From the NCBI RefSeq assembly GCF_004210295.1, contig NZ_SDAK01000003.1, forward strand, positions 1 to 63,285: 63,285 bases of DNA, read 5' to 3'. This document shows positions 9,790 through 56,256 of this stretch, piece by piece. The stretch comes from Lactococcus sp. S-13 (lineage in GTDB: Bacteria > Bacillota > Bacilli > Lactobacillales > Streptococcaceae). Position 1 is the first letter of the stretch. The number at the start of each line of letters is the position of its first letter. Under the pieces are notes generated by a model, which saw nothing but the letters and a program-made list of their open reading frames with translations, was not told the DNA's origin and searched no databases. Both the position numbers and the translations under genes were made by a program.

Positions 9790-9948
9790 TAAACCACCTC
9801 TGCTGTTTTTCTGAATGGACTCGATGCTCAACTTATTTGACCTTCTAGGAATCCAATTATATCAGAAAATAAATATAAACCTTTGAAGTATACTCTGGTA
9901 TCCTAACCGTGCTAGCAATAACTCTTTTTATAATATATCAAAAAGTGG

Positions 9949-21021: not shown

Positions 21022-21059
21022 AAAAAGCCTCGTAAGTCTTTGGCTTACGAGGCTTTTTT
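21022..21059 (+). terminator. Strong terminator after 20542-21003
   Basis: AAAAGCCTCGTAAG and CTTACGAGGCTTTT form a long GC-containing stem around TCTTTGG, followed by a T run, 19 bp after the stop codon. The -35 of the next promoter (TTGGCT, 21040-21045) lies in its loop and stem. Confidence 0.85.
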
Positions 21060-21069
21060 TGCTATAATA
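21040..21069 (+). promoter_or_regulatory. Promoter of the candidate hydrophobic-peptide toxin
   Basis: TTGGCT (21040-21045) and TATAAT (21064-21069) are spaced by 18 bp. The -35 overlaps the terminator hairpin of the upstream gene. Confidence 0.55.
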
Positions 21070-21145
21070 ATGAGGTAGAGTTTATGAACGGTAGCCTGAT
21101 TGGAGGTGGTGCTTATGGTTTTTTCGTGAGCAGACCTCACAAAAC

Positions 21146-21247
21146 ATGAAAGGCAAAAATTTTTTGACTGTATTTCAGGCATTGAGTCTCATGATTGCTT
21201 TTGCGACCTTGATGGTTCTTGTTACAAATACGAAGAACAAAAAATGA
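21146..21247 (+). CDS. Putative type I toxin, small holin-like hydrophobic peptide (Hol_Tox type)
   Basis: The 33-codon peptide has a short polar amino end, one hydrophobic helix (VFQALSLMIAFATLMVLV) and a basic tail (TNTKNKK). This is the pattern of holin-like type I toxins (TxpA/BsrG and lactobacillar relatives, with 'xxSLMLAFxT'). Its own ribosome site is weak. A strong GGAGGTGG at 21102 instead serves a 4-codon leader (ATG 21115, stop TGA 21127-21129). The mRNA carries GAACGGTAGC near 21087 and its complement GCTACCGTTC near 21294. The stem AAATGACC/GGTCATTT (21242-21279) may be a bidirectional terminator. An antisense RNA is expected but not located. Confidence 0.6.
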   Translation: MKGKNFLTVFQALSLMIAFATLMVLVTNTKNKK

Positions 21248-27629: not shown

Positions 27630-27800
27630 TATTCTTTATAAGCCCTGTTTGATACACCTCATAAATCGCTTTAAATAAGCTTTTAAATGTTTATAAGCCT
27701 CGTTTGATACCGTCTATAAGCCTTGTTTGATACTTGATTTTATTTCTATATTTTAGTATTATTTTTATAAGCCCTAAGACTTATAAAGGAGTTGAGAAAT

Positions 27801-28466
27801 ATGCACGAAATAGTTCAATATCATAATGATTTTAATACTGTCCCTCTTAGAGGGTTCAATGAACGTGAAAAACGAATTGTAATGGCTCTCCTTCATGAAG
27901 TCAAAGGAAAGGACACTCAAGTTGTACAACTCGACTTTAATACTTTGCGTGGACTTGTTGGATGGGACGAAAAAAATGGAAAAAGGAATTCATCTGAATT
28001 TGTTAAGTATCTTGAAACACTATCTGAAAAAATCATGACACTTCGAGGAACTCTAAGAAGTGAGAGCGGACTAAAAGTCGTTAAATTTAGTCTATTTCCA
28101 ACATTTATTATTGACGGCGAGGACACACAAACTCTGAAAGTTTCTATAAATCCTGAATTCAAGTATCTTACAAATATTTTTGATATGTTTACTGCCTTTG
28201 AGTTAGAAGACTATAACAAAATGAGTACAAGCTATGGACAAGAACTCTATCGATTAATCAAACAATTTAGAACAACTGGCTTTTATCGAGTGAAAGTAGA
28301 AGATTTGAGGCACTTACTTTCTGTTCCAAAAAGCTACACCAATGCGGATATGGATAGAAAAGTCTTTTCTAAAACCACTATCATTGACCTTACAAATGCT
28401 TTCCCTAACTTTAAAATCAAGCAAGAGCGAGGCACAGGTCGAGGACGTCCAATCATTGGTTATACC
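27801..28466 (+). pseudogene. repB: RepB theta replication initiator (Rep_3 type), 3' truncated by IS1216
   Basis: About 222 residues of a lactococcal RepB remain: 'LRGFNEREKRIVMALLHEVK', 'LSEKIMTLRGTLRSESGLKV', 'TAFELEDYNKMSTSYGQELY'. These winged-helix segments bind iterons. The frame then runs into IS1216 copy C after 'GRGRPIIGYT'. Family members are usually about 380-390 residues, so the carboxyl domain is missing. I start at ATG 27801, ten bases after AAAGGAG. A TTG start at 27792 is too close to the site. Replication from this origin is probably lost or impaired. Confidence 0.88.
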
Positions 28467-29275
28467 GGTTCTGTTGCAAAGTTTCCCAAAAGAGTATAGA
28501 AGTCCTAGTTTAACATTTTGACTATGCTGGGATCCCCATCAGAACTTTAATTTCAGTCGACACCGAAAATCCGAAGAGCGTTCCGTTTCTTCGGTTCTTT
28601 TTGTATATTCCTCGAATAGTCTCCATGCCCTTAATCGTGGTTGAGGCAGTTCGTAAACTTCGATAAAATTTATTACGGCGCTTAATTGGACGATGGTCCT
28701 GCTCAATTAAATTATTGAGATACTTAACTGTCCGATGTTCTGTCTTGGTATATAAACCGTTAATCTGTAGCTTTCTGAATGCAGAGCTAATCGATGGTGC
28801 TTTATCGGTTACAATCACTCTAGGTTGTCCAAATTGTTTATGGAGCCGTTTTAAGAAAGCATAAGCCGCCTGAGTATCCCGTTTCTTTCGTAACCAAATG
28901 TCTAAAGTTAATCCATCAGAATCAATTGCACGATAGAGATAATGCCAACGTCCTTTAATTTTGATATAGGTTTCATCCATTTTCCACGAATAGAAGGACT
29001 GTCTATTTTTCTTCTTCCAAAGATGATAGAGGACTTTACTGTACTCTTGAACCCAGCGATAAATCGTAGTGTGACAAACATTTATTCCACGATCATACAG
29101 TAGTTCTTGAACTTCACGATAGCTCAGATTGTAACGCAGGTAGTAACCAACAGCGACAATAATCACATCTTTTTGAAATTGTTTCCCTTTGAAATGATCC
29201 ATCTGTCTACCCTCACTCTCGTTTTCTTACATTTTACAATAAATCAGGAGTTATGGGGAACTTTGCAACAGAACC
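28467..29275 (-). mobile_element. IS1216-type element, copy C (IS6 family)
   Basis: The 809-bp element is bounded by GGTTCTGTTGCAAAGTTTCCC and its partner. The flanks GTTATACC and TTATTTTC differ. It is the inverse of copy B. The two copies face each other around a 3840-bp segment (24627-28466) that homologous recombination could invert. Confidence 0.95.
28522..29202 (-). CDS. IS1216-type transposase, copy C
   Basis: The 226-residue IS6 transposase is identical to copy B, with intact DDE residues. Transcription is leftward, into the truncated repB from its 3' side, so read-through would give antisense RNA to repB. Confidence 0.96.
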   Translation of the reverse strand: MDHFKGKQFQKDVIIVAVGYYLRYNLSYREVQELLYDRGINVCHTTIYRWVQEYSKVLYHLWKKKNRQSFYSWKMDETYIKIKGRWHYLYRAIDSDGLTLDIWLRKKRDTQAAYAFLKRLHKQFGQPRVIVTDKAPSISSAFRKLQINGLYTKTEHRTVKYLNNLIEQDHRPIKRRNKFYRSLRTASTTIKGMETIRGIYKKNRRNGTLFGFSVSTEIKVLMGIPA

Positions 29276-29644: not shown

Positions 29645-29800
29645 TTATTTTCTACTGCACTCCAAGCATTGGGTCACATGACCTCTTGTTTCTGTGATCT
29701 CACTCTCTTTTTTACCCTTCTGACAATATTGACAAATGTTTTGATAGCTTGGTAACTGATGAATTTGACCGCATTCCTTACACGTTTTATCCCCTTTCAT
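29645..29800 (-). CDS. Small zinc-ribbon protein
   Basis: The 51-residue protein begins at ATG 29800, chosen because TTGGAGGC lies 6 nt upstream. A longer frame up to 30049 runs back through the tRNA-like region and lacks a site. Cysteine pairs C-x-x-C near residues 6-9 and 24-27, plus C-x-x-C near 46-49, suggest one or two zinc knuckles. Its stop is 14 bp from the next gene. Function is unknown. Confidence 0.55.
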   Translation of the reverse strand: MKGDKTCKECGQIHQLPSYQNICQYCQKGKKESEITETRGHVTQCLECSRK

Positions 29801-29984
29801 TGATTGCCTCCAATTGTATTCTAAAAACCGCATTAACGGAAAAACCCTATCCTCATTTAAAGAGAATAGAGTGCTTATCATCAGCAAGAACTGCTTCGCT
29901 AATTTAGATCCCCATATCTCCCGTATGATATCAATGCCACTTATTTTAAATTTGACATTAGGATAAATTAAATTTGTTTTGAAT

Positions 29985-30060
29985 AGCACTGACAGGAGTC
30001 GAACCTGCGATAAACTATATACGGGATGTTTATAGAATATCATTACCAATAATCAGTGCT
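29985..30060 (-). ncRNA. tRNA-like sequence TLS1
   Basis: The 76-nt minus-strand sequence is closed by a perfect 7-bp acceptor-like stem (AGCACTG/CAGTGCT). It has a canonical T-arm (GCAGG, loop TTCGACT, CCTGT with one G-T pair) and a D-loop-like TTGGTAA with the GG pair. The middle is abnormal: CTATA/TATAG would enclose an 11-nt loop instead of seven, so no credible anticodon is defined. The discriminator base is A and no CCA is encoded. It may be an eroded tRNA or a structured RNA that keeps the tRNA elbow. Confidence 0.6.
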
Positions 30061-30100
30061 GCCTTTAGCAATTGCTAACTTCTAGGGAAGCCCTAGAAAT

Positions 30101-30159
30101 GCCTATCAGAGGAGTTGAACCTCTTTGTGATCCGTTGTTCCCAAGTGAACGTGACAGGT
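30101..30159 (-). ncRNA. tRNA-like sequence TLS2
   Basis: The 59-nt minus-strand sequence has acceptor-like arms ACCTGTC/GATAGGC (five standard pairs, one G-T, one mismatch). The T-arm is perfect (AGAGG, TTCAACT, CCTCT). A single hairpin GTTC/GAAC stands where the D-arm belongs. The anticodon arm is essentially absent. Between TLS2 and TLS1 lie two further hairpins, TTCTAGGG/CCCTAGAA and TTAGCAATTGCTAA. Confidence 0.5.
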
Positions 30160-30463
30160 GTTTAAGCCATGTTTAAGTAAATTATAAAGTAAGGGGTATG
30201 GTTTAATGGATAAAAATGTTATAATGAGGGTTGGTATTATAAGAGAAATAGTACTCTAATTTTAGCTTTTATCATCTAAAAATAGGCTATTTTTATCCAT
30301 TACTCTTGATTTCTTGTTTAAACAAGAGTTGAGAGTTTTTTTGTGAATTCCAAATATTATGGATTTCGCTTTTTAAAGGTACCATAAAGCTTGATAGGGA
30401 AAGTGTTGTTCGGGTTTTTTTAAATGCTTAGTAACAAGAAGTTTTCTTTTTCCCCTGTGAATA

Positions 30464-30493
30464 TATAATACGACTTTAAGTCGTGTTTGTCAA
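30464..30493. promoter_or_regulatory. Overlapping divergent promoters with a 15-bp operator palindrome
   Basis: Leftward: TTGACA (30493-30488), 17 bp, TATTAT (30470-30465), a near-consensus promoter aimed at the tRNA-like cluster. Rightward: TATAAT (30464-30469) with TTTTCT 16 bp upstream, serving the repressor gene. ACGACTTTAAGTCGT (30470-30484) fills the leftward spacer and abuts the rightward -10, so a bound repressor would block both. That it is the operator of the adjacent repressor is inference. Confidence 0.75.
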
Positions 30494-30521
30494 GCGGTAA
30501 TTCGAAAATTTGAGGTAAAAA

Positions 30522-31277
30522 ATGAATTTTTCAACTAGACTAAGAGAATTAAGGAAAAAAAAGGGGTTAACTCAATCTGAACTAGCAAAAAAATTAAATG
30601 TTACATATCGGGCAATCCAGAAGTACGAATCTGGTGAGGGCAAGCCTAGAAATACAAACCTTGTTGCCTTAGCGAAAATCTTTGACGTAAGTGTCAGTTA
30701 TCTTTTAGGTGAAACAAATGTTAATCCAAAATTTTCCATTGCTGAAGTAATGGAAGAATTAAATGAGCAACGTCAAGAAAAAACTTATAAGTTTGCCAAA
30801 AAACAACTTACCGAACAAAACGAAGAAAATAAAATTGTTCAATTAAGTAATTCATTGATTCCCTATGAAGTCGAGGAAGAACAAGCCTTGTCGGCAGGTA
30901 TGGGGGAAGCCTATACAGACGAAGTTAGTAAGGAAATCGTCTATTGGAACAAACAAGTGAAGCATGATCGTTCAGTCGTTATTAGGGGCAATTCAATGGA
31001 ACCTGATTATCACTATGGAGATGTTGCCCTGATCTGTTATCAAGATTCAGTGGACGTCCCTGGTGGGATATATGCGGTAGATGACATCGAGAGAGGTTTG
31101 GCTTACATCAAATCTGTTTTTGTCGAAGACAAATACATTCGATTAGTTTCTTTGAACGACTCAGAAGACATCGAAGGCAATAGATTATTCCCTGATATTC
31201 TTTTGCCAAGAAATGAAAACACAAGGATAATTGGAAAAGTTGTAGAAGCTTTTACGCCAATTAAAAAAGAGTATTAA
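30522..31277 (+). CDS. LexA/HdiR-like repressor (HTH_XRE plus S24 peptidase domain)
   Basis: The 251-residue protein has an XRE helix-turn-helix at about residues 8-62 (LTQSELAKKLNVTYRAIQKY). A linker contains the Ala-Gly self-cleavage candidate in 'LSAGMGE' near residue 126. The S24 catalytic pair is Ser in 'VIRGNSMEPDYHYGD' near 163 and Lys in 'LAYIKSV' near 199. This is the organisation of lactococcal HdiR and phage CI repressors, which RecA inactivates after DNA damage. The uvrX/yolD remnant at 35.5-36.2 kb is a typical target of such a regulator. The start ATG follows TTTGAGG. Confidence 0.88.
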   Translation: MNFSTRLRELRKKKGLTQSELAKKLNVTYRAIQKYESGEGKPRNTNLVALAKIFDVSVSYLLGETNVNPKFSIAEVMEELNEQRQEKTYKFAKKQLTEQNEENKIVQLSNSLIPYEVEEEQALSAGMGEAYTDEVSKEIVYWNKQVKHDRSVVIRGNSMEPDYHYGDVALICYQDSVDVPGGIYAVDDIERGLAYIKSVFVEDKYIRLVSLNDSEDIEGNRLFPDILLPRNENTRIIGKVVEAFTPIKKEY

Positions 31278-33234: not shown

Positions 33235-34083
33235 ATGGAAGAATTAAATCAGGCAAAACAATTGCTAAAAGAACGCAAGAAAGCTGTCACTATTATTATT
33301 GGTAATCAAAAAGGAGGAGTTGGTAAAACAACAAATACTTACTTAATTGCTTATACACTTTCGAAGTTAGGGATTAAAACATTAGTGTGTGATCTTGATC
33401 CTCAATCAAACTCTACTAAAGCACTAATGCTTACAAAATCTCAGAATAGTAATGAAATAATGACTATTGATAAGACTTTGATGTGGGGAGTCCAACAACG
33501 TAACTTAAAAGATTTACCAGTGCCAATTATTGAAAACCTTGATTTATTACCAAGTTATATTGATTTTGAAGACTTTGCAAAGTATTTATATAAAAATACT
33601 AGTACAGAATATGAAGAAACTCATTTATTAGAGCCATTGTTTGAGCCGCTAAAAGAAGATTATGACATAATACTAATTGACGTTCCACCTTTAAGTATTG
33701 AGGTAACAAGCAATGCTGTTATGTTTAGTGATTATGTTCTTATCTCATTGCAAACTCAGGATGATAGCATGACAGGAGCAGTTGAATATATTAAAACATT
33801 AGTTAAGCTGAAGATGAAATATGACCTTGGTATAGAGGTGCTTGGTGCCTTGCCGATGCTATCAAATAGTAGAGGTTCAGTGGATAAACTAATTATTGAG
33901 TCAGCAAAAGAAGAGTGGGGGGAAGATCTTGTTTTTGAAACTGTAATTCCTCAAATGGAACGGATAAAGCGATTTAGTATAAATGGTATAACTGATGAAG
34001 ACCGTTTTGACCGAAAAGTTCTTGAAATGTATGAAAAAGTTGTTTCAGAAATGCTATCTAAGCTTATAGAATTTGAAGAATAG
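33235..34083 (+). CDS. parA: ParA-type partition ATPase
   Basis: The 282-residue deviant Walker ATPase has motif A 'GNQKGGVGKTT' near residue 23, A' 'VCDLDPQSNSTK' near 53, and B 'DIILIDVPPLS' near 147. I start at ATG 33235, five bases after AAGGAGG. The longer frame from 33202 has no ribosome site. It segregates plasmid copies together with the downstream ParB-like protein and the flanking repeats. There is no amino-terminal helix-turn-helix, so regulation is probably by the small partner. Confidence 0.93.
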   Translation: MEELNQAKQLLKERKKAVTIIIGNQKGGVGKTTNTYLIAYTLSKLGIKTLVCDLDPQSNSTKALMLTKSQNSNEIMTIDKTLMWGVQQRNLKDLPVPIIENLDLLPSYIDFEDFAKYLYKNTSTEYEETHLLEPLFEPLKEDYDIILIDVPPLSIEVTSNAVMFSDYVLISLQTQDDSMTGAVEYIKTLVKLKMKYDLGIEVLGALPMLSNSRGSVDKLIIESAKEEWGEDLVFETVIPQMERIKRFSINGITDEDRFDRKVLEMYEKVVSEMLSKLIEFEE

Positions 34084-37578: not shown

Positions 37579-38514
37579 TTAGAAATGTACAGAAGAAACT
37601 GCTTTTCTTGTTGCTATTTTCTGTTGTAATCCAATTCTGAAGTAACTCAAATAGTTTTGTCTACTGTTATATTTGTTATCTATCAATTGTTCTTTAACCA
37701 ACTCAGCAAATGCAATTGATGCTTGTTCTGGGTCAGAGTAATCTAAATCAAATCCAACTCGTGTGGTAAACAAGAAGTCCATTAAGTCGGTTTTGACATC
37801 CTCAGAAAATTTTGTTTTCAAAAGAGATTCAATCAAATCTTTTTCAAATGGAAAGCATTCAAGATAATCCATTTTTGCTTTTTCAAGTTTATTTTGAAAT
37901 TCTGAAATTTCTTTATTATTTTCTTCTTCTTCTTCACCATTTATTAGTAAACCTTTATTAATAGATTTAATACCTGTTGATTTTGTGCTGTCCGTTTTAT
38001 GCTGTTCAAAATCAACACCCATAGAAATCCCATGGTTATCAGTGTGTTGATTTTCAACACCCTGATTAACACTGGGTTTAGGGTCACTTGATTTTTGTGC
38101 ATTTTCTATCAATTTTTTATTTCGATAGTATGAAGCAGGCTTTCTATTCGTTCCAGAACGATAAGCAATATCCCAACCAGTTGTTAAGTACTCCTCATTT
38201 AATTCTTGAATAGTTTCTTCTGAAAATCCTTCATGACTAAAAAGATACTCAAATTGTTGTTTAGGTTTTTTTCCTTTGGAATATGCGATAATGAAATTTT
38301 GGTCAAGAAGTTCATTCCAAATTCTTTCAACTGAGGTTTTTTTATTTTTTTCAAAGCATGTATAAAGATTTGTTTTATGAAAAATATAATTATCTGGCAT
38401 ACTTTCCATATAACTTAGTAACCCTCTAGCTTCTAAACTTAAATCGTTTCTTTGCAAAAATTCTCTATTTAAACTTTCATAGCCTTTTTGTTTTTTAAAT
38501 TTCTTAACTGCCAT
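37579..38514 (-). CDS. Replication-initiator-like protein (third rep gene)
   Basis: The 311-residue protein has an amino-terminal winged-helix segment as found in phage and plasmid replisome organisers: 'YESLNREFLQRNDLSLEARGLLSYMESMP', 'TSVERIWNELLDQNFI'. A low-complexity linker (EEEEENNKE) and a helical DnaD-like carboxyl end follow. It is the first gene of a leftward unit that begins with two tRNA-like sequences. The ribosome site is weak (GGAAAC). Whether it still replicates DNA or is a leftover of a fused plasmid cannot be told from the sequence. Confidence 0.65.
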   Translation of the reverse strand: MAVKKFKKQKGYESLNREFLQRNDLSLEARGLLSYMESMPDNYIFHKTNLYTCFEKNKKTSVERIWNELLDQNFIIAYSKGKKPKQQFEYLFSHEGFSEETIQELNEEYLTTGWDIAYRSGTNRKPASYYRNKKLIENAQKSSDPKPSVNQGVENQHTDNHGISMGVDFEQHKTDSTKSTGIKSINKGLLINGEEEEENNKEISEFQNKLEKAKMDYLECFPFEKDLIESLLKTKFSEDVKTDLMDFLFTTRVGFDLDYSDPEQASIAFAELVKEQLIDNKYNSRQNYLSYFRIGLQQKIATRKAVSSVHF

Positions 38515-38577
38515 AATATGTTTCCATTTTCTAACTTAAACGTATCCGCCAAGATACGATAAGAATTAAGTTTTAAA

Positions 38578-38638
38578 GCGAAATCGAGGATTCGAGCCTC
38601 TATCGTCCTTATTGACTTAAGTCAATACAGAATTTCGC
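38578..38638 (-). ncRNA. tRNA-like sequence TLS4
   Basis: The 61-nt minus-strand sequence is closed by a perfect 7-bp stem GCGAAAT/ATTTCGC. It has a T-arm-like AGAGG, CTCGAAT, CCTCG (four pairs). The whole D/anticodon part is replaced by one palindromic hairpin, TATTGACTTAAGTCAATA. It lies 64 bp upstream of the Rep-like gene. Confidence 0.5.
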
Positions 38639-38707
38639 AAATGCAAGTACTGTTGGCGCAGACCCGCAAGGCTATTATGGCAGATAGCGATATGAGCTAA
38701 TGCTCAA

Positions 38708-38772
38708 TGATTTATGCAGGAATCGAACCTGCGAAATTAAGTAATAATTACTATCTAGCACCAATTAAATCA
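38708..38772 (-). ncRNA. tRNA-like sequence TLS3
   Basis: The 65-nt minus-strand sequence is closed by a perfect 7-bp stem TGATTTA/TAAATCA. It has a perfect canonical T-arm (GCAGG, TTCGATT, CCTGC) and a D-loop-like ATTGGTGCTA. In place of the anticodon arm is AGTAAT-T-ATTACT. It starts about 12 nt after a promoter-like -10. The 69-nt gap to TLS4 contains the small hairpin GAGC/GCTC. Confidence 0.55.
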
Positions 38773-38784
38773 GTATATTGTATA

Positions 38785-38814
38785 TTTATATAACTAGAGT
38801 GCATATAAATGCAA
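38785..38814 (-). promoter_or_regulatory. Promoter for the TLS3-TLS4-rep transcript
   Basis: On the minus strand TTGCAT (38814-38809), 18 bp, then TATAAA (38790-38785). It lies between an upstream terminator and TLS3, so the RNA would begin almost at the tRNA-like fold. Confidence 0.55.
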
Positions 38815-38817
38815 AAA

Positions 38818-38847
38818 ACCATCACTCAAATCTAATTGAGTGATGGT
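38818..38847. terminator. Terminator insulating the TLS3 promoter
   Basis: ACCATCACTCAA and TTGAGTGATGGT form a 12-bp stem; on the minus strand it is followed by TTTTTT. The 38848-39250 stretch beyond it has an AT-rich region, a TTTCCGAAAGG hairpin and a possible 18-codon minus frame near 38990-39040, but no convincing gene. Confidence 0.8.
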
Positions 38848-39256
38848 TTATAAGTTCCATTATTTATTGTTATTTAGTAATATTTGCTCTTCTGCTTCTG
38901 CCAATTCTAATGTAAAAAGAATTACAGTTTTTCGGAAAGATGTTACTTAAAACATATAGGAGTTCTGTGTCACACCTTTCCGAAAGGTTTCATAAACCTT
39001 GCTATTATAAGGTTTTTGTAACACATTGCTCTCCTGCTTTTTGTTTTCATCATCTTTCTAAAAAATTTTTTCAGAAGTTTTTTCTTTTTCTTACTAAAAT
39101 AAATTAATAGATATTATTATAAATCAAATCACTCACAAAAAAGAGAGATTCCTATTAAGAATCTCCCTTTTACATCATTTGACTTGACTTTTTATGCATA
39201 TTTATTTATAATATCATTAAGTAAGTCGATTGAACGGAATGTGTTCTTAATCGGCA

Positions 39257-39292
39257 GGTCTGATTAAGCTGTAACTTTATCAGGCCTTTTTT
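39257..39292. terminator. Hairpin terminator
   Basis: GGTCTGATTAAG-type arms pair with ATCAGGCC, followed by TTTTTT, about 70 bp outside the 39362 gene end. Confidence 0.55.
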
Positions 39293-39361
39293 AGTTGCCT
39301 TAATTATAGCATAAACTATTCTTGCGTGCAAGGATTTTTTTGTTATGCTCTGTTAGGCTGA

Positions 39362-48288: not shown

Positions 48289-51200
48289 CTATCTCGTTAA
48301 TTCCTGTGTTTTTTCCTGCTCTTGTTCTTGCACATTTTGATTAGGATTTAATTCAGAACGTAAATCATTCAATCGTTCTTTAGAATGTTGATATTCTTCT
48401 TCTTTGGGAAATTCCATATTTTGATTTTTTAATATCCCAGAAATTGAGGAATTTAATCGTTTGACTTCTTCTTCGGTCTGCAGTAAATCACGAGTTAGAC
48501 CACTTTCAAAAAAATTATCAATTTTAGAAAAAATTCCTAAGGGTTTATCAGGACTGACTAACAATGAGTATTGCGCTTCATTTTTTAAGATTATTTTTTC
48601 ATCTATTGACTCGCCTATTATCGTTAATCTTTCTGTTTTAGGAACATAAAGCACTTCAAATCCCCTATAATCGGCAATTTTAATCAATGTTGTTTCTTTA
48701 TCTACCCGGCTCTGTAATGAATGATTTTGAATTTGACGAGCTAAAAATTCAGCGACATCTGTTTTTTTATCAGTATCATTAAAGTGTCGAGTGGTTTCTT
48801 TATAATAAATATCAATACTAAATGGAGTCTCTTTTGTTTCTTCAAGGGCTTTTAAGTCATTCTTGACTGCAGTTATTCGCTGCTCAAAACGTGGTAATTG
48901 TTCTTGTGCTGTTTTAACACGCTTTAAGTCAGTAATTTTACTATCAAAGAAACGAGTTCTTGAACGTTCTAATTCTTGGAATTTTTGTTCAAGTTGCATG
49001 TACTCTTGTTTAAGTGGATTCCCTTCCGCAATCGTTTTGTATTTCCCCATGTTAATCTGAGTGTCTCCGATTTCTTCCATCTCACGAACGTCAGATTGAC
49101 CACTCATGATTTGATTGATCACTTTGGCTTTGTTTTCCTGAGTTTGCCATAAGAAAGCATCCATAGAGCCTTTAGTGATATAGTAATGAACGGATACATT
49201 AGGGTTTTCATTTCCTTGTCGAATTAATCTTCCGTTACGCTGCGTAATATCTGAGGGACGCCAAGGAACATCAAGATGATGAACTGCAATCATTTTATCT
49301 TGTACGTTAAGCCCAGTCCCTGCTTTGCTCGTACTTCCAATTAAAACACGTATTTTACCAACACGCATATCACGCATCATTGCTTCTTTATTTTTTTCAG
49401 TTGCCTCATGAATGAATCGTACTTCTGATTCTGGAACGCCTTTAGCAACAAGCATTCGTTTTATTTCATCATAAGCTGAAAACATATTGATACTGTCATC
49501 GCTATTTTTAGGTTGACTATTACGATATTTGACAGGAACGGAAAGGTCAGAAAATATCATTTGAGTAGATTTTTTATCATCATTTTCGGTATAAATTCTA
49601 AAAACTTCATCAACTACCTGGGTTAACTTATCAGAATCAAAAGCGCTATAGCGTTTATCGTCGAGCGCCCGCATATCAAGCGTTAATTTACGGTTTTCTC
49701 CAACAATTTTAAGCATGTTGTCCTCTTTTGGTTCAACTACACCTGCCTCAATGGCTTTAGCTCTGTTTATTAAATACTCGATATAACGTGCCTGCTCTCC
49801 AGTCACATTAGTTTCATGTGCTACCATTTCTGCGTGAGGAACAGGTAAATCAAGCATTTCTTGAGTTTGTATATCCCATGTTTCACGGAACATATTCATC
49901 AATTCAGGGACGTTCCCAAACTTCGTGAATCTTCGATTGACTTTAAATGTGCCAGAGGCAGTCAATTCAAAGTTATTTTCAATGATTCCAAAGCTTGATA
50001 CCCAGCTATCAAAGTTGGCAACCCCATACTTTTCAAGGACATCAGGCTCAGTATATTTCATCATCGTATAAAGTTCTACAACAGAGTTTGACATCGGTGT
50101 TCCCGTAGAAAAAACAACACGTCGATTATCATAAAGGTTATGCATATATTCAATCTTCATCATTAAGTCCATAGACTTCTCAGCACGTGTATCAGATATT
50201 CCTTTTACATTTTCCAGCTGTGTGTAAGGTGCTAGGTTTTTATAACCATGCGCTTCATCGACATAAAGCATATCAATACCTAATTCTTCAAATGTAATAA
50301 AAGAATCTGTATCTGTTTTTTGAAGTTTTTCTAAGCGAGTTTTGAGAGCTTCGATCGTTTTCTCAGCTTTTTTAACTGTATATGAACCTTCATCCGCTTG
50401 TTCAATCATTGAGCGAGCTTCATAAAGCTGTTCCTTGATATAGTTTTCCTGATAGGCTTTACTCATTCCAATCTTACCGAATTGTGAATCCGCAATAATA
50501 ATCGCATGATATTTTCCTGTTGCAATACGACTAACAAATCTTTTGCGTCCTGCTTTAGTGAAGTCTTCTGGCTGAGCGACAAGTACTTTACTTTCAGGAA
50601 AATATTTATAAATCTCACGTGCAAATTGATTAATTAAAGGCTTAGGAATTACAAAGAGTGCATTATGTACCATCCCAAGCTCTTGAAGTTTCATATTTGA
50701 GGCAAGCATGGTCAAGGTTTTACCTGAACCTACTTCATGTGCATAACCTGCTCGTAACTCTTGAACAGTACGCATTATTGCATTATTTTGATGTGGTCGA
50801 GGTTGAAACTGTTTTGCCAATCCATTAATCGTAAGTCCACTTCCATCATAGGTTTTGACCACGTAACGATTGAATTGCTCATTATAAATATCTACAATCG
50901 TTTCTTGGGCTTCTAAATTTTGTTCAACCCATTGTTTAAAGCGTTCAATCAAGGCTTCGCTTTTCTCCTCAAGAACAGCAGTTGCTACCTGATCTAAAAT
51001 TCTTTTTCTGCCAGAAGGGTCCTCTGGGTCAGGCATATAAATTTTACCAGGCTTTTGATTAAGCAGAACATTGGCGAGTTTTTGTCCATCAAATCCTTTG
51101 TGACCATAGGTATTCGTAATCGCAAACCTATGAAGGGAGGCAAAATTGACATCATAACTATCTGAGGCATTATCATAGACTACAGATACTTTGGTTTCCA

Positions 51201-54200
51201 TGACTTCACTTAAAAAGTCTTGATAAAGTGAGGTTGGAATAAAACGAGAACCAAATTTGTAAGTGATGTCAGATAAAGGTAAATCTTTAGGGACCACTTC
51301 TTCAAGTGCATCAATATTCTCAAACCAGTTTCTTTCTTCAACTTGAAAGGCTTGATTATTTCTTGCTTCGAGCAACTTCGTTTTAACATCTCCAGAGAGA
51401 TAATCTTCTTTGGTTTGATAGATTCCATCGCCAATATAAAAAAGCCTGTCTCCAAGCTCATCAATGATTTCTTCTTTAGTATGGCCATAAATAGATTCCA
51501 TATATTCAAAATCGAGTTTTCCTCGATGATTGAGGGAAGCTAAGAGCGCATCTGAGGCATTATTAACGACAAGGCTTGTAGGTTGAGGTTGAATTGTTGG
51601 CTCATAAAAGACCGTTCCTTTCACTATTTTAGGCTCTTTTGTGAGTTCATCTTCAGTTTCCTCTTCAATTGAGGCTAAAAACTCATAATAATCATCTGTC
51701 CTCATTAACAAGCTATTTGCCTGATTTGAAATAGGACCAAATTTATCAACGAATTTATCATATTGAGCATTCAATCTCAATCGTAAATTTTCATATTCGC
51801 CTTGGTCATAATCAGGAAGATGTTGAATATTGAGGAGTTCTTGCAAAGTATGTCTCATCTCAATCATTTGGCGCATGGCTTGAACATCTTTGGTCGAGTA
51901 ATCAACTTTATAGCGGTATTGTGTACTTATAACCTCTTCAATAATTAAACGGTTTTGAAGGTCTCCTTTAACGTATTGGTAACGTTTATCTGAATCAGTA
52001 ATCTCATGCTCTCCATTGGCTAATCGGTCAAGGATTTCACGAGGAATTTCTGGTAGAGGAACGCCATTAAGTGACTCAGTAACTATAAAATTATTCCAGG
52101 TATCTAAGTAGCCTTTAGTGTTAAAAACCTCTTTAAATTTAGGAGTGGTTTCAAAAATCTTTGATTTGTTATTCTCATATCGAGAAAGCTGATTTTTTCT
52201 GGTTTCGTTCCTGTTCAACGTCACGCTAGAAGATTTTTGATGAGGGGTAACGCTCTTACCATCAAAATAATAAGGCTTGTTTTTATAAATAAAGAGCGTA
52301 TAAGGTTCAGCTTGTGCAATGATTTCTTGGGGCACATCTGATTCAATTTGAAGTGCTTCTTCAAAAACGCTTGCCTCATGTTCGCCATAATAAGCTGCCT
52401 CTGCTTGCTGAGAAAAGGCTTCAGAAATCTTATCATAAAGCTGTTCTTGCTCAAAATCACGAACAACTGAAAGCATTCCTCGATTAAAGGTCTCTATTTT
52501 GATTTGACCTAACAAATATTGAGGGTTTTCCATAAAATAGTGATTGACATTGATTTGATTGTCCTTACCGTCTTTTTGAAGCTCTGTTTTTATCCAGTTG
52601 GGGTGAGGGTCTGGAGTGCTTGTCTTTTGAAAAATTAAAAGGTCAGAACTAACATCTGTCCCTGCAATCGACTTAAATGTTCCATTAGGCAGTCGAACTG
52701 CAGAAACTAGATTTGCAGTTTTTGAGAGTTCTTCACGAAAACGACTGTCTTTCTTATCCATTGTTCCTGTAGAGGTAATAATGGCAACTAAGCCCCCCTC
52801 ATGGACTAAATCAAGCGATTTCTTAATGAAATAATCGTGAATCGGATAAACCTTATCATATTGCTCGTCGGCTAAACGAATGACTTCACTAAAAGGGACA
52901 TTGGTAATAACTAAATCTAGCCCATCATTAGCAAAGTTCGTCGATTCAAAGCCTTTAATTTGAATGTCTGATTTTTGGTGCAATTGTTGAGCAATTTCGC
53001 CAGTAATATTGTCAATTTCTACTCCATAGAGGCTAGAATTTTCTTTCATTTCTCCTGGCATCGCAGCAAAAAAGTTTCCTGTTCCCATTGAGGGGTCTAG
53101 AATTCTACCGCCTTCAAAGCCAAGCGTTTGAAGTTGAGCGTAAATTGTTTGAATTACTTTAGGGTCAGTATAAAATGCAGTCAGACTTGATTTACGCATT
53201 TCTGCGTACTCATCTTTTGAAACTAAGGCTTTAAGTTCATTGCGTTGGTTTTCAAATCTAGGGTTACTTTCATCAAATATCGTATCAGCTAAACCACCCC
53301 AACCGACGTATTTTCCTAAGATTTGTTGTTGCTCAGGTGTAGCCAGTTGCCCCTTTAATTCTTTGGTTAATTTTATAGCAGCAAGGTTGGCATTTACCTT
53401 TTCAGTAGGCGTCTTAGGGTAGAACTCATTTGAATTTTTAGGAAACTCGAAATCTATTAATGGTTTATCGCTTAATTGTGGGTCCACTTCTAATTGAGGT
53501 TTAGCTTCATAAGGGATTTCCATTACTTCACTTAATCTCTGACGCAGTATATCCCGTTGTTCTACAGTCCATTTATCAAGGAATGTCTCATCAGGAATAA
53601 ACTGACCAGATTGTAAATCAAGATTCACAAGCCCTTTTCTACTTTCCTCTATCATTTGATCGAGTTTTAAGCGTTGTAGCCCGCCTGACCAATCGAACAA
53701 TATTTGAGGTTTGCGTTGTTCAATTTCGTTAAGCATTTCAGATAAAATCTCACCAGCTTGATAAAGTTGGCTATCCGTGGGTATTTTTTCGTGGGGGAAA
53801 GTTGTTTCTGCTTCCTCAAAACTAGAAGTATCTTCCGCCCTCTGAGGAGTTTGAGTAGAAGCAGTCTGGTTTTCTTCTGTGAATGCCACATCTTCAATAT
53901 CATCAAACAGAGAGATTTCTTTCACTTCTTTTAAATTATTTCTTCGAATCTCCTCTTGTCTCAGTTCTGCCCAACGATTAAATGAACCACGAGAGTATCC
54001 ATTTCCCTCATTACCAATCATTTTTCCATAGCTATCAATGATTTGTTCTTGAAGTTCTTCATCAGATAACTGGGTAATCTCATTGATTGTATTTTCAGGG
54101 TTATTTTCTAAGTCTGTCTCAATGGAGTCTGGGGAATCAAAAAGGTCAATTTCCCCATTTTCAGCTGCAGCTTCTTGTAAATCTTTTTCTTCAATGATTT

Positions 54201-56256
54201 GTGGCCAACGTAATTCAGCAAAGTTGACTATAGCCTCATCAAGTAACCATTCTTGATAATCATTAATTTTATTGCCGGTTAAATATAAACTATCCTGGAC
54301 AAATTGTGAGACTCTCTCAGCAATATTGCTCCACGAAAGGGTCAACTCAATCGGTTCTTTTATTTTCAAACCTTTGCTATCATAATCATAAGATAGTTCT
54401 TTGCTGCTATATCCGCCAGTTCCGTATTCTTTAGCAAGAAATGCGGAGGCATATTTTTCAAAGCCTGATTCTTGTGGAAGACGTTGTTCAAAATAGTGCT
54501 GGATGCGAAAACTACCTTCTGCAATATTGGAACTTCTTAATAATACTTTTTCGATTACTTCTTCTTGGTCATAAGCTATTTCAGAGGGCTCTAGCTCAAA
54601 TTTTGTAAATAATTCGTCTTTTTCAGCCTCTTTTTGAACTTCAAAATTTATAGTTTCGAGAGCTTGGTCAAAAGTCTTAAAAATACGTGACCGAATTGGC
54701 GTACTCATAGGGTCAGTAGAATAAGCCTCAACATCTGTGGACGCCCAGAAAACAACTTTTGAATCATCATTTGTGCCTTGTTCACGTCCAATGTAGTTAT
54801 AGCCTAGTTGAACTGCTCCTTGTGTGGTTTTAAAATCAAATGTATCATAAGCACCCGATACATTTTGTCCTTTTAATTTCAGGTCTTGAAAGTGCATGTA
54901 AGAATCGTAAAGTTGCGTATACCCACGTTCAACGATCTGATTATACTCTTCAATATTTTTAACAATTTCTTGAAAGGATTCCAATCTTTCGGTTTGAGTA
55001 TCCTTTTCTTCAAGCATTGTGTCAGACTTTGAGACTTCTTCTGTTTTAAGTGTCACTGTGTCTTGTAGATATTCATAAATCTGTTTCCCAATGACACGTG
55101 GAAAATCAATCGGTTGATGATTGAGTAAAAAATTAAACAACGCTTTATTATCAGAGTGATGTTCTAAGAGGTAAGCCCCTATAGAATCATTAAAGGAGGA
55201 CTCAAAAGCTCTATAAGTATTTACTTTTGCCGAATCTCTTAGATTGTTATCTGAAGCTAAAGTATCTCTCATTTGCTCTACAAGTGCTACCAATTCCTCG
55301 TCGGTAGTCTCGGAAGGGAAATCGGGATAAAACGTAGGAATGATTTCTTTCATTGCCCAGATTTGCTCAGGATTAAAACTGGGAAAATCATTGCTAGAAT
55401 CTTGTTCAATTTCTGAAATATTTTCTAAAGCAACTGTTTCTTTTTTATCAATATCATCATTTATAACATTAAAGTCAACATCTGCAGTAATTTCGTCAAT
55501 TGATTCATTGAGAGTCGCTTGATTTAACATTAAATCATCAGTCAGACTAGAAACTTGTTCGTATCGCTCATTAATTAACTTGGTCAATTGGCGAGAAAAA
55601 CTGTTAGCGAGGGAAAAAGTTCGTAAGAGATTATCTTCAGCATTTAATTGCTTAAAAGACTCTAAAATATGATTAGAAAAATCTTCATGACCTACACCCG
55701 TATCTAAATAAGCTCCAAACTCTTCAAAAATATTATACTGTGCAATAGAGAGGGCTACAGAACGTTGACGGTCGGAATAGCCAGATAGATTGGGGACTGT
55801 CTTCTCAATATAATCTTTAATGAACATTGTTGAACTATCTAAAAACTCATCTTCATCTCTATTTCCAAGAAGATAATCATGACCTGAAATGTCTGCGAGT
55901 GAGTTAACTAACACTCGATTTGAAAGAAGTGTACTTTTGATTTCAAAAGGGTTAATCAAAGTGGTTTGTGCTAGATCAAATAAAACCTCTTGTACTCGAC
56001 CGTTGGAATCCCAAAGTCGAACACTTGCTTTTTGACCAAATTGCACACTTGATTCATTCGTTAAATCCTTCCAGAAATCAAAAGAACCCAGAATACAAGC
56101 TTCAGGGTTCTGAATATATATTGAAATCACCTCATTGATAGGGCGCAGATGATGATAACGATTAAATCTGAGGAAATCAAGTTGTTCCTCTTTACTTAAT
56201 TTTGTAAATTCTGCGATAAATTGTTGTTGGGCTTTGACCACTTCGTCTCGGTTCAT
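48289..56256 (-). CDS. Giant conjugation-associated DNA methylase/SNF2 helicase fusion
   Basis: The 2655-residue protein has an amino third of repeated, plasmid-type small domains. A methylase-like core follows around residues 1030-1150, with S-adenosylmethionine motif 'RILDPSMGTGNFFAAM' and a 'DLVITNVPFSEV' catalytic-like motif (NVPF rather than NPPF/NPPY). An SNF2-like helicase occupies about 1830-2350: Walker A 'AHEVGSGKTLTM', box II 'MLYVDEAHGYKN', motif VI 'QRNGRLIRQGN'. Such proteins recur on conjugative plasmids and are thought to protect or process incoming DNA. The start ATG has ATGAGG upstream. A divergent partial paralogue lies at 19.1-20.5 kb. Confidence 0.88.
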   Translation of the reverse strand: MNRDEVVKAQQQFIAEFTKLSKEEQLDFLRFNRYHHLRPINEVISIYIQNPEACILGSFDFWKDLTNESSVQFGQKASVRLWDSNGRVQEVLFDLAQTTLINPFEIKSTLLSNRVLVNSLADISGHDYLLGNRDEDEFLDSSTMFIKDYIEKTVPNLSGYSDRQRSVALSIAQYNIFEEFGAYLDTGVGHEDFSNHILESFKQLNAEDNLLRTFSLANSFSRQLTKLINERYEQVSSLTDDLMLNQATLNESIDEITADVDFNVINDDIDKKETVALENISEIEQDSSNDFPSFNPEQIWAMKEIIPTFYPDFPSETTDEELVALVEQMRDTLASDNNLRDSAKVNTYRAFESSFNDSIGAYLLEHHSDNKALFNFLLNHQPIDFPRVIGKQIYEYLQDTVTLKTEEVSKSDTMLEEKDTQTERLESFQEIVKNIEEYNQIVERGYTQLYDSYMHFQDLKLKGQNVSGAYDTFDFKTTQGAVQLGYNYIGREQGTNDDSKVVFWASTDVEAYSTDPMSTPIRSRIFKTFDQALETINFEVQKEAEKDELFTKFELEPSEIAYDQEEVIEKVLLRSSNIAEGSFRIQHYFEQRLPQESGFEKYASAFLAKEYGTGGYSSKELSYDYDSKGLKIKEPIELTLSWSNIAERVSQFVQDSLYLTGNKINDYQEWLLDEAIVNFAELRWPQIIEEKDLQEAAAENGEIDLFDSPDSIETDLENNPENTINEITQLSDEELQEQIIDSYGKMIGNEGNGYSRGSFNRWAELRQEEIRRNNLKEVKEISLFDDIEDVAFTEENQTASTQTPQRAEDTSSFEEAETTFPHEKIPTDSQLYQAGEILSEMLNEIEQRKPQILFDWSGGLQRLKLDQMIEESRKGLVNLDLQSGQFIPDETFLDKWTVEQRDILRQRLSEVMEIPYEAKPQLEVDPQLSDKPLIDFEFPKNSNEFYPKTPTEKVNANLAAIKLTKELKGQLATPEQQQILGKYVGWGGLADTIFDESNPRFENQRNELKALVSKDEYAEMRKSSLTAFYTDPKVIQTIYAQLQTLGFEGGRILDPSMGTGNFFAAMPGEMKENSSLYGVEIDNITGEIAQQLHQKSDIQIKGFESTNFANDGLDLVITNVPFSEVIRLADEQYDKVYPIHDYFIKKSLDLVHEGGLVAIITSTGTMDKKDSRFREELSKTANLVSAVRLPNGTFKSIAGTDVSSDLLIFQKTSTPDPHPNWIKTELQKDGKDNQINVNHYFMENPQYLLGQIKIETFNRGMLSVVRDFEQEQLYDKISEAFSQQAEAAYYGEHEASVFEEALQIESDVPQEIIAQAEPYTLFIYKNKPYYFDGKSVTPHQKSSSVTLNRNETRKNQLSRYENNKSKIFETTPKFKEVFNTKGYLDTWNNFIVTESLNGVPLPEIPREILDRLANGEHEITDSDKRYQYVKGDLQNRLIIEEVISTQYRYKVDYSTKDVQAMRQMIEMRHTLQELLNIQHLPDYDQGEYENLRLRLNAQYDKFVDKFGPISNQANSLLMRTDDYYEFLASIEEETEDELTKEPKIVKGTVFYEPTIQPQPTSLVVNNASDALLASLNHRGKLDFEYMESIYGHTKEEIIDELGDRLFYIGDGIYQTKEDYLSGDVKTKLLEARNNQAFQVEERNWFENIDALEEVVPKDLPLSDITYKFGSRFIPTSLYQDFLSEVMETKVSVVYDNASDSYDVNFASLHRFAITNTYGHKGFDGQKLANVLLNQKPGKIYMPDPEDPSGRKRILDQVATAVLEEKSEALIERFKQWVEQNLEAQETIVDIYNEQFNRYVVKTYDGSGLTINGLAKQFQPRPHQNNAIMRTVQELRAGYAHEVGSGKTLTMLASNMKLQELGMVHNALFVIPKPLINQFAREIYKYFPESKVLVAQPEDFTKAGRKRFVSRIATGKYHAIIIADSQFGKIGMSKAYQENYIKEQLYEARSMIEQADEGSYTVKKAEKTIEALKTRLEKLQKTDTDSFITFEELGIDMLYVDEAHGYKNLAPYTQLENVKGISDTRAEKSMDLMMKIEYMHNLYDNRRVVFSTGTPMSNSVVELYTMMKYTEPDVLEKYGVANFDSWVSSFGIIENNFELTASGTFKVNRRFTKFGNVPELMNMFRETWDIQTQEMLDLPVPHAEMVAHETNVTGEQARYIEYLINRAKAIEAGVVEPKEDNMLKIVGENRKLTLDMRALDDKRYSAFDSDKLTQVVDEVFRIYTENDDKKSTQMIFSDLSVPVKYRNSQPKNSDDSINMFSAYDEIKRMLVAKGVPESEVRFIHEATEKNKEAMMRDMRVGKIRVLIGSTSKAGTGLNVQDKMIAVHHLDVPWRPSDITQRNGRLIRQGNENPNVSVHYYITKGSMDAFLWQTQENKAKVINQIMSGQSDVREMEEIGDTQINMGKYKTIAEGNPLKQEYMQLEQKFQELERSRTRFFDSKITDLKRVKTAQEQLPRFEQRITAVKNDLKALEETKETPFSIDIYYKETTRHFNDTDKKTDVAEFLARQIQNHSLQSRVDKETTLIKIADYRGFEVLYVPKTERLTIIGESIDEKIILKNEAQYSLLVSPDKPLGIFSKIDNFFESGLTRDLLQTEEEVKRLNSSISGILKNQNMEFPKEEEYQHSKERLNDLRSELNPNQNVQEQEQEKTQELTR

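Follow-up and report, generated by a model that had tools for sequence, protein, structure and literature searches.

Two tRNA-like folds belong to a predicted leader RNA at the head of conjugation operons on Lactococcus plasmids

Introduction

What are two tRNA-shaped stretches without a usable anticodon doing behind a repressor-controlled promoter on a plasmid? The locus lies in a 63,285-nt stretch of Lactococcus DNA, here called the window, which is contig C3 of a 2.27-Mb host genome assembled in four contigs. The original prediction, made from the letters alone, described two RNAs with intact T-arms, TLS1 and TLS2, and offered two explanations. Either the plasmid makes free-standing tRNA mimics in response to DNA damage or, more plainly, the folds are eroded tRNA genes of phage or plasmid origin. 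How lactococci control conjugation is described as a poorly studied subject (PMC10873654).

The minus strand of the window carries genes for RepA_N, T4SS coupling, TraG/HerA-like ATPase, CHAP, toprim, SNF2/helicase and relaxase proteins, and the RepA_N gene bears out the plasmid setting that had been predicted. Other features of the window include an Rfam match to the Listeria sRNA rli28 (21053-21234, plus strand; 50.6 bits, cut-off 45), a 2655-aa ORF (48289-56256, minus strand) that was scanned over its C-terminal 903 aa and shows SNF2/helicase domains there, and a gene for an M13-family peptidase on a conjugative plasmid (10036-11919, minus strand). Loci in other records are referred to below by number (L001 and so on).

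Results

The TLS1 and TLS2 folds

Inspection of the sequence gave TLS1 a 7-bp acceptor (AGCACTG/CAGTGCT), a T-arm with a 5-bp stem (GCAGG/CCTGT) and the loop TTCGACT, and a discriminator A at 29984 that is not followed by CCA. TLS2 combines a 4-bp D-like arm (GTTC-ACTTGG-GAAC, with GG within the loop) with the T-loop TTCAACT, and its acceptor and T stems form a stack of 11 pairs that can be divided as 6+5 or 7+4 (CCTGTC/GATAGG being the acceptor of the 6-pair version). The 206-nt TLS stretch has a folding energy of -56 kcal/mol (z = -3.37), which was equalled by none of 200 shuffles. A relaxed scan for tRNA-like folds, with a chance level of 0.5-0.9 hits per shuffled window, picks TLS1 and misses the window's TLS2, whose acceptor stack is one pair short and includes one G-U. 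ARAGORN found no tRNA genes in the window, and the Rfam tRNA model (RF00005) gave TLS1 20.1 bits, under its 29-bit cut-off, and TLS2 no hit. Neither fold has the full cloverleaf with anticodon, at 29 bits or more, that marks a member of the tRNA class. That the predicted folds exceed chance is indicated above all by compensatory changes, which keep them in diverged relatives (see below). The claims that T-arm-bearing, tRNA-like folds occur at both sites and that neither offers a usable anticodon were therefore upheld. The "oversized anticodon loop" ascribed to TLS1 is actually an extended arm, the loop of which matches a site downstream.

The leader and its surroundings

Taken together, the features in Table 1 suggest that TLS1 and TLS2 are parts of a single predicted leader of ~620 nt, running from an operator-bearing promoter to an intrinsic terminator. 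The TLS region is flanked by a divergent HTH/S24 repressor gene on one side and by two small ORFs on the other. The near-consensus promoter with its palindrome-filled spacer, the adjacent LexA/HdiR-like repressor gene and the small zinc-ribbon and coiled-coil genes had all been named in the original prediction, and each was found. Partial relatives of the 103-aa ORF are present in 13 Lactococcus plasmid records.

Table 1. Features of the leader locus and of related elements (positions in the window unless a locus is named)
Feature	Position	Strand	Details
Repressor gene, HTH + peptidase S24 (LexA/HdiR-like), divergent	30522..31277	plus	Pfam HTH_3 5.1e-18, Peptidase_S24 6.8e-12
Leader promoter	30465..30493	minus	-35 TTGACA, 17-bp spacer, -10 TATTAT
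Palindrome ACGACTT-A-AAGTCGT, likely operator	30470-30484		in promoter spacer; 7-bp arms
Hairpin, leader 5' domain	30302..30343	minus	from alignment; type of L001-L003
TLS2	30102-30158	minus	acceptor, GG-bearing D-like arm and T-arm; anticodon arm absent
TLS1	29985-30060	minus	acceptor, TTGG-bearing D-like loop, extended arm at anticodon position, T-arm
Predicted pseudoknot, 5' strand UCCCGUAU	30019..30026	minus	TLS1 anticodon-position loop
Hairpin between TLS1 and pseudoknot partner	29932..29960	minus	both-sided changes at 6/8 pairs; 86.3% of cells paired
Predicted pseudoknot, 3' strand AUACGGGA	29919..29926	minus	58 nt past TLS1 acceptor
Hairpin ahead of terminator	29881..29902	minus	both-sided changes at 4/8 pairs; 94.8% of cells paired
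Intrinsic terminator, leader end	29840..29872	minus	5' arm ACTCTATTCTCT, identical in 11/11
First ORF past leader, 51 aa, zinc-ribbon-like	29645..29800	minus	three CxxC cysteine pairs
Coiled-coil-like ORF, 103 aa	29320..29631	minus	weak Pfam coiled-coil hits, below cut-off
IS240/IS6-type transposase gene	28522-29202	minus	directly beyond coiled-coil ORF
Rep3-type initiator gene	27792-28499	plus	directly beyond coiled-coil ORF and transposase
tRNA-like element outside leader	38709..38771	minus	relaxed scan; upstream of ORF 37579-38514
tRNA-like element, T-loop CTCGAAT	38578..38638	minus	relaxed scan; upstream of ORF 37579-38514
Second structured stretch, C2 copy	~33519-34073	minus	in L028
Second structured stretch, other copies	L001:4267-4905; L034:6700-7380; L052; L106		common motif ATCAGNGTNGCTACTAAAG

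Sixteen promoters were tried, two of which fell outside the strict pattern; the 14 that were parsed, including two from other loci (L015 and L016), all have a 17-bp spacer. Palindrome arms of 7-10 bp were found in eight of these (the window's and, in the corresponding position, seven of the 13 others) and vary in sequence by plasmid, the arms in the remaining six being 3-5 bp. Such varied operator palindromes would fit plasmid-specific repressors. From the family to which the repressor belongs, we infer that DNA damage would inactivate it. L015 (G013:C35) and L016 (G011:C7) show a like promoter layout beside S24-type repressor genes, with different sequences downstream.

Past the 103-aa ORF, the insertion sequence and Rep3 gene (Table 1) are followed by several plus-strand ORFs, and the window's leader is thus severed from tra genes. 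The IS240/IS6 transposase and Rep3 genes likely mark a cointegrate or an insertion by which leader and operon were separated. A 99% copy of the leader (the match covering query bases 61-891) is present on contig C2 of the same genome, and the two contigs have the leader and both small ORFs in common until about window position 29246. Past the leader, C2 continues with a series of ORFs that are all on the minus strand, and five of the six that were scanned gave a hit; their products include an adhesin, a MobL relaxase, a lysozyme/CHAP protein, a T4SS coupling protein and a TraG-like ATPase. By this comparison, the window looks like a recombinant that has retained only the head of the operon. 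The C2 promoter has a spacer of its own (TTGACA-ATATACGCAAAAAGGTA-TATTAT). These two plasmids of one genome, 99% identical over the leader, diverge near window position 30470 from the -10 box upwards, giving C2 a different spacer/operator.

Relatives of the leader

A distant blastn search of 72,556 plasmid records yielded 12 relatives of the leader, all from Lactococcus and with 69-74% identity; the match spanned 72-74% of the query in five records, 41-54% in another five and 21% in the remaining two. None of 50,697 phage records matched the leader by blastn, and further queries likewise returned no phage match. When L010 and L004 served as queries, each retrieved 12 Lactococcus records. Ten of the 12 relatives were analyzed (NZ_AP024212 and NZ_AP024224, which match like H3, were left out), and alignment A1 was made without L007, whose sequence begins at the record start. 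A repressor gene lies upstream of the leader in all nine relatives that do not begin at a record end, and tra genes follow the leader on the same strand in six longer plasmid stretches. In C2, as in the relatives, a conjugation (tra) operon begins with the leader.

The 5' part of the leader is of at least two types in the alignment, the hairpin type not found in Table 1 being that of L004-L006 and L008-L010. Plasmid p14B4 joins an L004-like 5' part (87%) to an L002-like TLS1 part, which indicates that the leader is modular. L004, L008, L009 and L010 are four plasmids of L. lactis LB7, each with its own version of leader and repressor. Between the repressor gene and the first ORF of L004-L006, one locus tag is missing from the CDS tables (IL310_RS00055, LLUC06_RS13840 and FO444_RS13420); these skipped tags perhaps belong to a tRNA or pseudo-tRNA annotated at TLS2.

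Eleven sequences spanning TLS1 to the terminator were the basis of a covariance model, R1. In a search for spread beyond Lactococcus, R1 found matches in 45 of 295 family genomes and 42 of 395 order genomes, and all matches other than the leader itself scored only 28-42 bits. Of the 32 such loci that were fetched, 24 were checked, and in 23 of these the match fell on an ordinary tRNA; the one that differed, L052, is a Lactococcus plasmid. Since R1 gives ordinary tRNAs 28-42 bits, the 32-40 bits of L034, L035 and L052 are no proof of homology.

Covariation of the leader structure

R1 was used to realign 14 sequences (alignment A4). Because A4 is fitted to its own structure, its counts lean towards that structure: 92.0% of 527 cells are paired vs 83.3% after shuffling, both-sided changes occur in 18 of 42 pairs vs 9.8, and the covariation score is 0.292 vs 0.153, with none of 500 shuffles reaching the observed value in any of the three. 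When partners were slid by 1-3 columns, pairing dropped to 36-48%. Further pair types were at chance level (41 vs 38.1; 82 of 500 shuffles). The TLS1 acceptor has 98.0% of cells paired across the 14 sequences and both-sided changes at five of seven pairs, and the weakest helix is the lower stem in the TLS1 anticodon position (69.4% paired). The TLS2 acceptor pairs through base changes in the seven versions listed, a list without L001 (bulged acceptor) and L007, with an internal U-U in L002 and L003. Compensatory changes in the acceptor stems of homologous plasmids, which the original prediction had proposed to look for, are thus present in both folds. Pairs of the terminator hardly vary, and its stem is therefore not tested by covariation.

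A predicted loop contact in cis

In all 11 leaders (eight distinct, the window's included), the anticodon-position loop of TLS1 can form 6-9 perfect Watson-Crick pairs with a site 52-61 nt past the TLS1 acceptor. There are six compensating versions of this predicted pseudoknot: UCCCGUAU/AUACGGGA in the window, UCCCAGU/ACUGGGA, UCCCGUC/GACGGGA, CCCCCGGUU/AACCGGGGG, UCCCGG/CCGGGA and CCCCGUU/AACGGGG. Cognate helices average 7.25 pairs vs 4.7 in 56 non-cognate swaps; matches of 7 or 8 pairs do occur in seven of the swaps, of which six fall inside one version group. The best loop match was reached by 0-17 of 1000 shuffles per row, and in L001, L002, L003 and L007 it is tied by a second site, TGGGATG, at 69-70 nt.

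Leaders of the L. garvieae/petauri type (L034, L035 and L052) have loop matches of 10, 9 and 9 pairs to a site 56-57 nt downstream, reached by 1, 7 and 2 of 1000 shuffles, respectively; L035 and L052 represent one version, and the U and A run varies in length on both strands. Both leader types have the loop contact in common though their sequences hardly align, which brings the cis match to all 14 leaders examined. The partner site of the L. garvieae type overlaps a Shine-Dalgarno-like purine run (AAAGGGGG) before the first ORF, and the terminator precedes the TLSs. In leaders of the L. lactis type, the partner site lies ~47 nt ahead of the terminator. Two other candidates were rejected: a short leader peptide overlapping the pseudoknot partner has its frame kept in some rows and not in the window, L001 or L009, and an antiterminator pairing of GGAGA with the terminator's UCUCU is not kept in L010.

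Other tRNA-like folds and a second structured stretch

Across the window and 12 plasmid or contig stretches, most tRNA-like folds picked by the relaxed scan lie close to tra heads and on the strand that is transcribed (0.1-1.0 hits per shuffled stretch). Exceptions were AT-rich plus-strand hits at 9930, 35998 and 40758 in the window, single hits in L022 and L027, four in L018 and one further down the L026 operon. Plasmid relatives were sought for window positions 38500-39361, around the two elements outside the leader (Table 1), and none were found.

Acceptor length was left free in 34 distinct rows from chosen hit-bearing regions, among them 11 TLS1 and six TLS2 versions: 20 rows have 7 pairs, nine have 6, three have 8, one has 9 and one has 10. 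About five of these rows are evidently wrong pairings (e.g. the 9-pair L002 row and an 85-nt insert in L008), and the list misses folds with interrupted acceptors (e.g. L004:4567, L009:4731 and L010:3398). Within the initial 40 nt of the insert, GG is present in 33 of the 34 rows vs 23.5 expected by chance, an excess so modest that GG was dropped as a sign of a tRNA elbow. CC was found at positions 74-75 in none of the 34 rows; host tRNA genes are likewise without CCA (0 of 30 checked, from a total of 63). Several folds have a short hairpin in place of the anticodon arm, with a GAAA loop in L034 and L035. A sibling fold at L035:4857-4937 scores 41.3 bits, above the Rfam tRNA cut-off, L033:1468-1595 is narrowly under it (28.7 bits), and the related fold of L106 retains a classic tRNA D-arm. 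ARAGORN reported no gene in L033-L037, L052 and L106, and it labels two TLS2 relatives tRNA-??? and tRNA-Asn(att). Permissive Rfam scans of the leader gave nothing except hits far under the cut-offs, and no family matched.

Several tra operons contain a second conserved structured stretch of ~500-600 nt, which begins with a tRNA-like fold and follows a 96-101-aa ORF in L001-L003, L005 and C2. It is absent from the window and retained in C2. Rfam gave no match in the loci scanned (L052 and L106 were outside the scan). The consensus of seven sequences has 107 pairs, with 661 of 734 cells paired and both-sided changes at 33 pairs, the structure having been predicted on the same alignment that was used for the counts, without a shuffle control. 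In L036:3544-4025, L029, L009:4203-4784 and L035:4046-4488, the stretch is bracketed by two tRNA-like folds, which include a 43-nt minihelix of acceptor and T-arm.

Discussion

Based upon these observations, it is likely that the TLS folds help control when the transfer genes switch on, rather than acting as tRNAs. Our preferred reading, which we hold tentatively and at slightly less than an even chance, is that TLS1 and TLS2 act in cis within the leader as a tRNA-like/pseudoknot gate on the tra operon and have no part in decoding. We envisage that release of the repressor would let RNA polymerase transcribe the leader. The stacked acceptor, T-arm and D-loop of TLS1 would then hold the anticodon-position loop in a way that lets it grip its partner downstream, and the pseudoknot, formed just ahead of the leader exit, would set how often expression passes through. 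In the L. garvieae type the pseudoknot might mask the Shine-Dalgarno-like site; in the window type it might act beside the terminator. The input could be host proteins that read the tRNA elbow, which is a guess. The case for such a gate comes from the relatives and C2, rather than from the window's own copy, which has no tra genes behind it and may gate nothing. We keep the gate tentative because the two leader types put different signals at the contact, namely a Shine-Dalgarno-like site and the vicinity of the terminator. Since the partner site is Shine-Dalgarno-like in the L. garvieae type only and the position of the terminator differs, the two types may not share one gating step.

Erosion of phage or plasmid tRNA genes, the plain alternative in the original prediction, is extremely improbable. 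It would account for window folds that fall below tRNA detection, and descent from tRNAs is made plausible by the D-arm of L106 and the score of L035:4857-4937. However, the compensatory acceptor changes, the covarying loop partner, the T-loops conserved across 69-74% identity and the lack of a phage relative all argue against decay, and for TLS1 the covariation refutes it. The other half of the prediction held that damage inactivates the repressor and releases small tRNA-like RNAs, which then occupy host tRNA-binding proteins in trans. An operator-bearing promoter beside an S24 repressor gene would suit this, as would an acceptor/T-arm kept across many unlike sequences while the anticodon arm is dropped or replaced. 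Nevertheless, all of the folds lie inside longer conserved leaders and the TLS1 loop has its partner in cis in 14 of 14 leaders, so that free-standing, damage-induced mimics are unsupported and, in our view, improbable.

The folds could instead be sites at which RNase P and RNase Z cut the tra transcript, freeing the leader and the neighbouring structured RNAs. This is unlikely, even though it would explain why the acceptor/T stack has mostly retained the tRNA measure. The shape of an RNase P/RNase Z substrate (a ~12-pair acceptor/T stack, a T-loop and no CCA) is present, with 12 pairs in TLS1 and 11 in TLS2. The mostly tRNA-like acceptor lengths, the early GG and the missing CC in the 34 rows also agree with it, as do the CCA-less host tRNA genes and the bracketing of the second structured stretch in L009, L029/L036 and L035. 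Against this, the covarying partner of TLS1 lies beyond the RNase Z position, and cutting would part the loop from its partner; further, the rows come from hit-selected regions and contain about five wrong pairings, and the TLS2 stack of the window is one pair short of 12. We consider it quite unlikely that the leader is a conAn2-like RNA for processive antitermination, with which polymerase would read through the terminators of the tra operon. A 101-aa tra-head protein and a 172-aa protein of the first operon of pLS20, which we take from its place to be ConAn1, weakly match the same stretch of NCBIfam TraE_Enteroc (0.021 and 3.4e-4, below cut-off); however, when the 101-aa family was set against the pLS20 protein by profile comparison (hhalign probability 2.4%, E 0.02, 19 columns), homology to ConAn1 was not supported. 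A terminator ends the leader, and terminator-like sites in six tra operons number 60 on the transcribed strand and 34 on the opposite strand vs 10.2 per strand after shuffling, which is suggestive, though some are bidirectional or intergenic. With a regulated promoter ahead of it and a conjugation operon following, the leader has the place described for conAn in Gram-positive operons (PMC8955417). No tRNA-like fold was found in pLS20 1-30000, and, as a candidate for conAn2, the leader is surpassed by the stretch behind the 101-aa ORF.

If the gate is read more broadly, the leader could represent a new family of cis-regulatory RNAs, derived from tRNAs and carried by conjugative plasmids of lactococci. 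Such retired tRNAs would have kept the acceptor, T-arm and elbow and exchanged the anticodon for a loop able to read a "codon-like" site within their own message, and transfer would be gated via the host's tRNA-handling machinery. We regard this wider proposal as speculative and rather unlikely in its entirety. What the locus offers is a conserved, testable RNA device at the heads of conjugation operons with plasmid-specific operators, and the compensating changes pinpoint the pairs to break. If it is true that tRNA-like folds gate transfer, tRNA processing or tRNA-binding proteins would become an input to plasmid spread. There is also a warning for annotation, in that look-alikes of broken tRNAs can be conserved parts of another RNA.

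Several known systems resemble parts of this leader. In tRNA punctuation, RNase P and RNase Z process polycistronic RNA, e.g. mitochondrial transcripts. The likeness lies in the ~12-pair stack of acceptor and T-arm and in host-like, CCA-less 3' flanks; in contrast to that system, tRNA detection passes over most of the folds described here, and TLS1 is linked to a site farther down the leader. The tRNA-Other or pseudo-tRNA of Bacillus cereus is a Firmicute tRNA-like RNA thought to be non-decoding, which it has in common with our folds; it is a separate gene, whereas these are domains of a plasmid leader. T-box models of Rfam had no match in the window, the leader or the further loci scanned. 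The translational operator of E. coli thrS is a tRNA-like fold in an mRNA leader beside a Shine-Dalgarno site, in which the anticodon arm is mimicked for the synthetase. The arrangement of fold, leader and Shine-Dalgarno site is similar, but our folds retain acceptor, T-arm and elbow, and a loop matching a site in cis stands in for the anticodon. The GOLLD and ROOL ornate RNAs are described in PMC12286853 as large, structured RNAs of mobile elements that occur near tRNAs, the linkers of GOLLD sometimes containing tRNAs. Their Rfam models had no match in the window (gathering score), in 29700-30540 (E up to 10) or in 16 further loci (E up to 1), and they differ in that our folds have no usable anticodon and sit in a plasmid tra leader rather than in a phage. 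A search of the open-licence literature found no description of conjugation leaders with tRNA-like folds. Similar in position is conAn, which PMC8955417 presents as an RNA element opening a Gram-positive conjugation operon that contains terminators and is preceded by a regulated promoter. The pLS20-type system (ConAn1 protein with conAn2 RNA) and our leader take the same place at the operon head in the relatives and C2, the window's copy being cut off; they differ in the tRNA-like folds, absent from pLS20 1-30000, and in the protein link, which profile comparison does not support. A structured leader RNA of a conjugation operon is a known kind of element, and it is the tRNA-like build that makes this one unusual.
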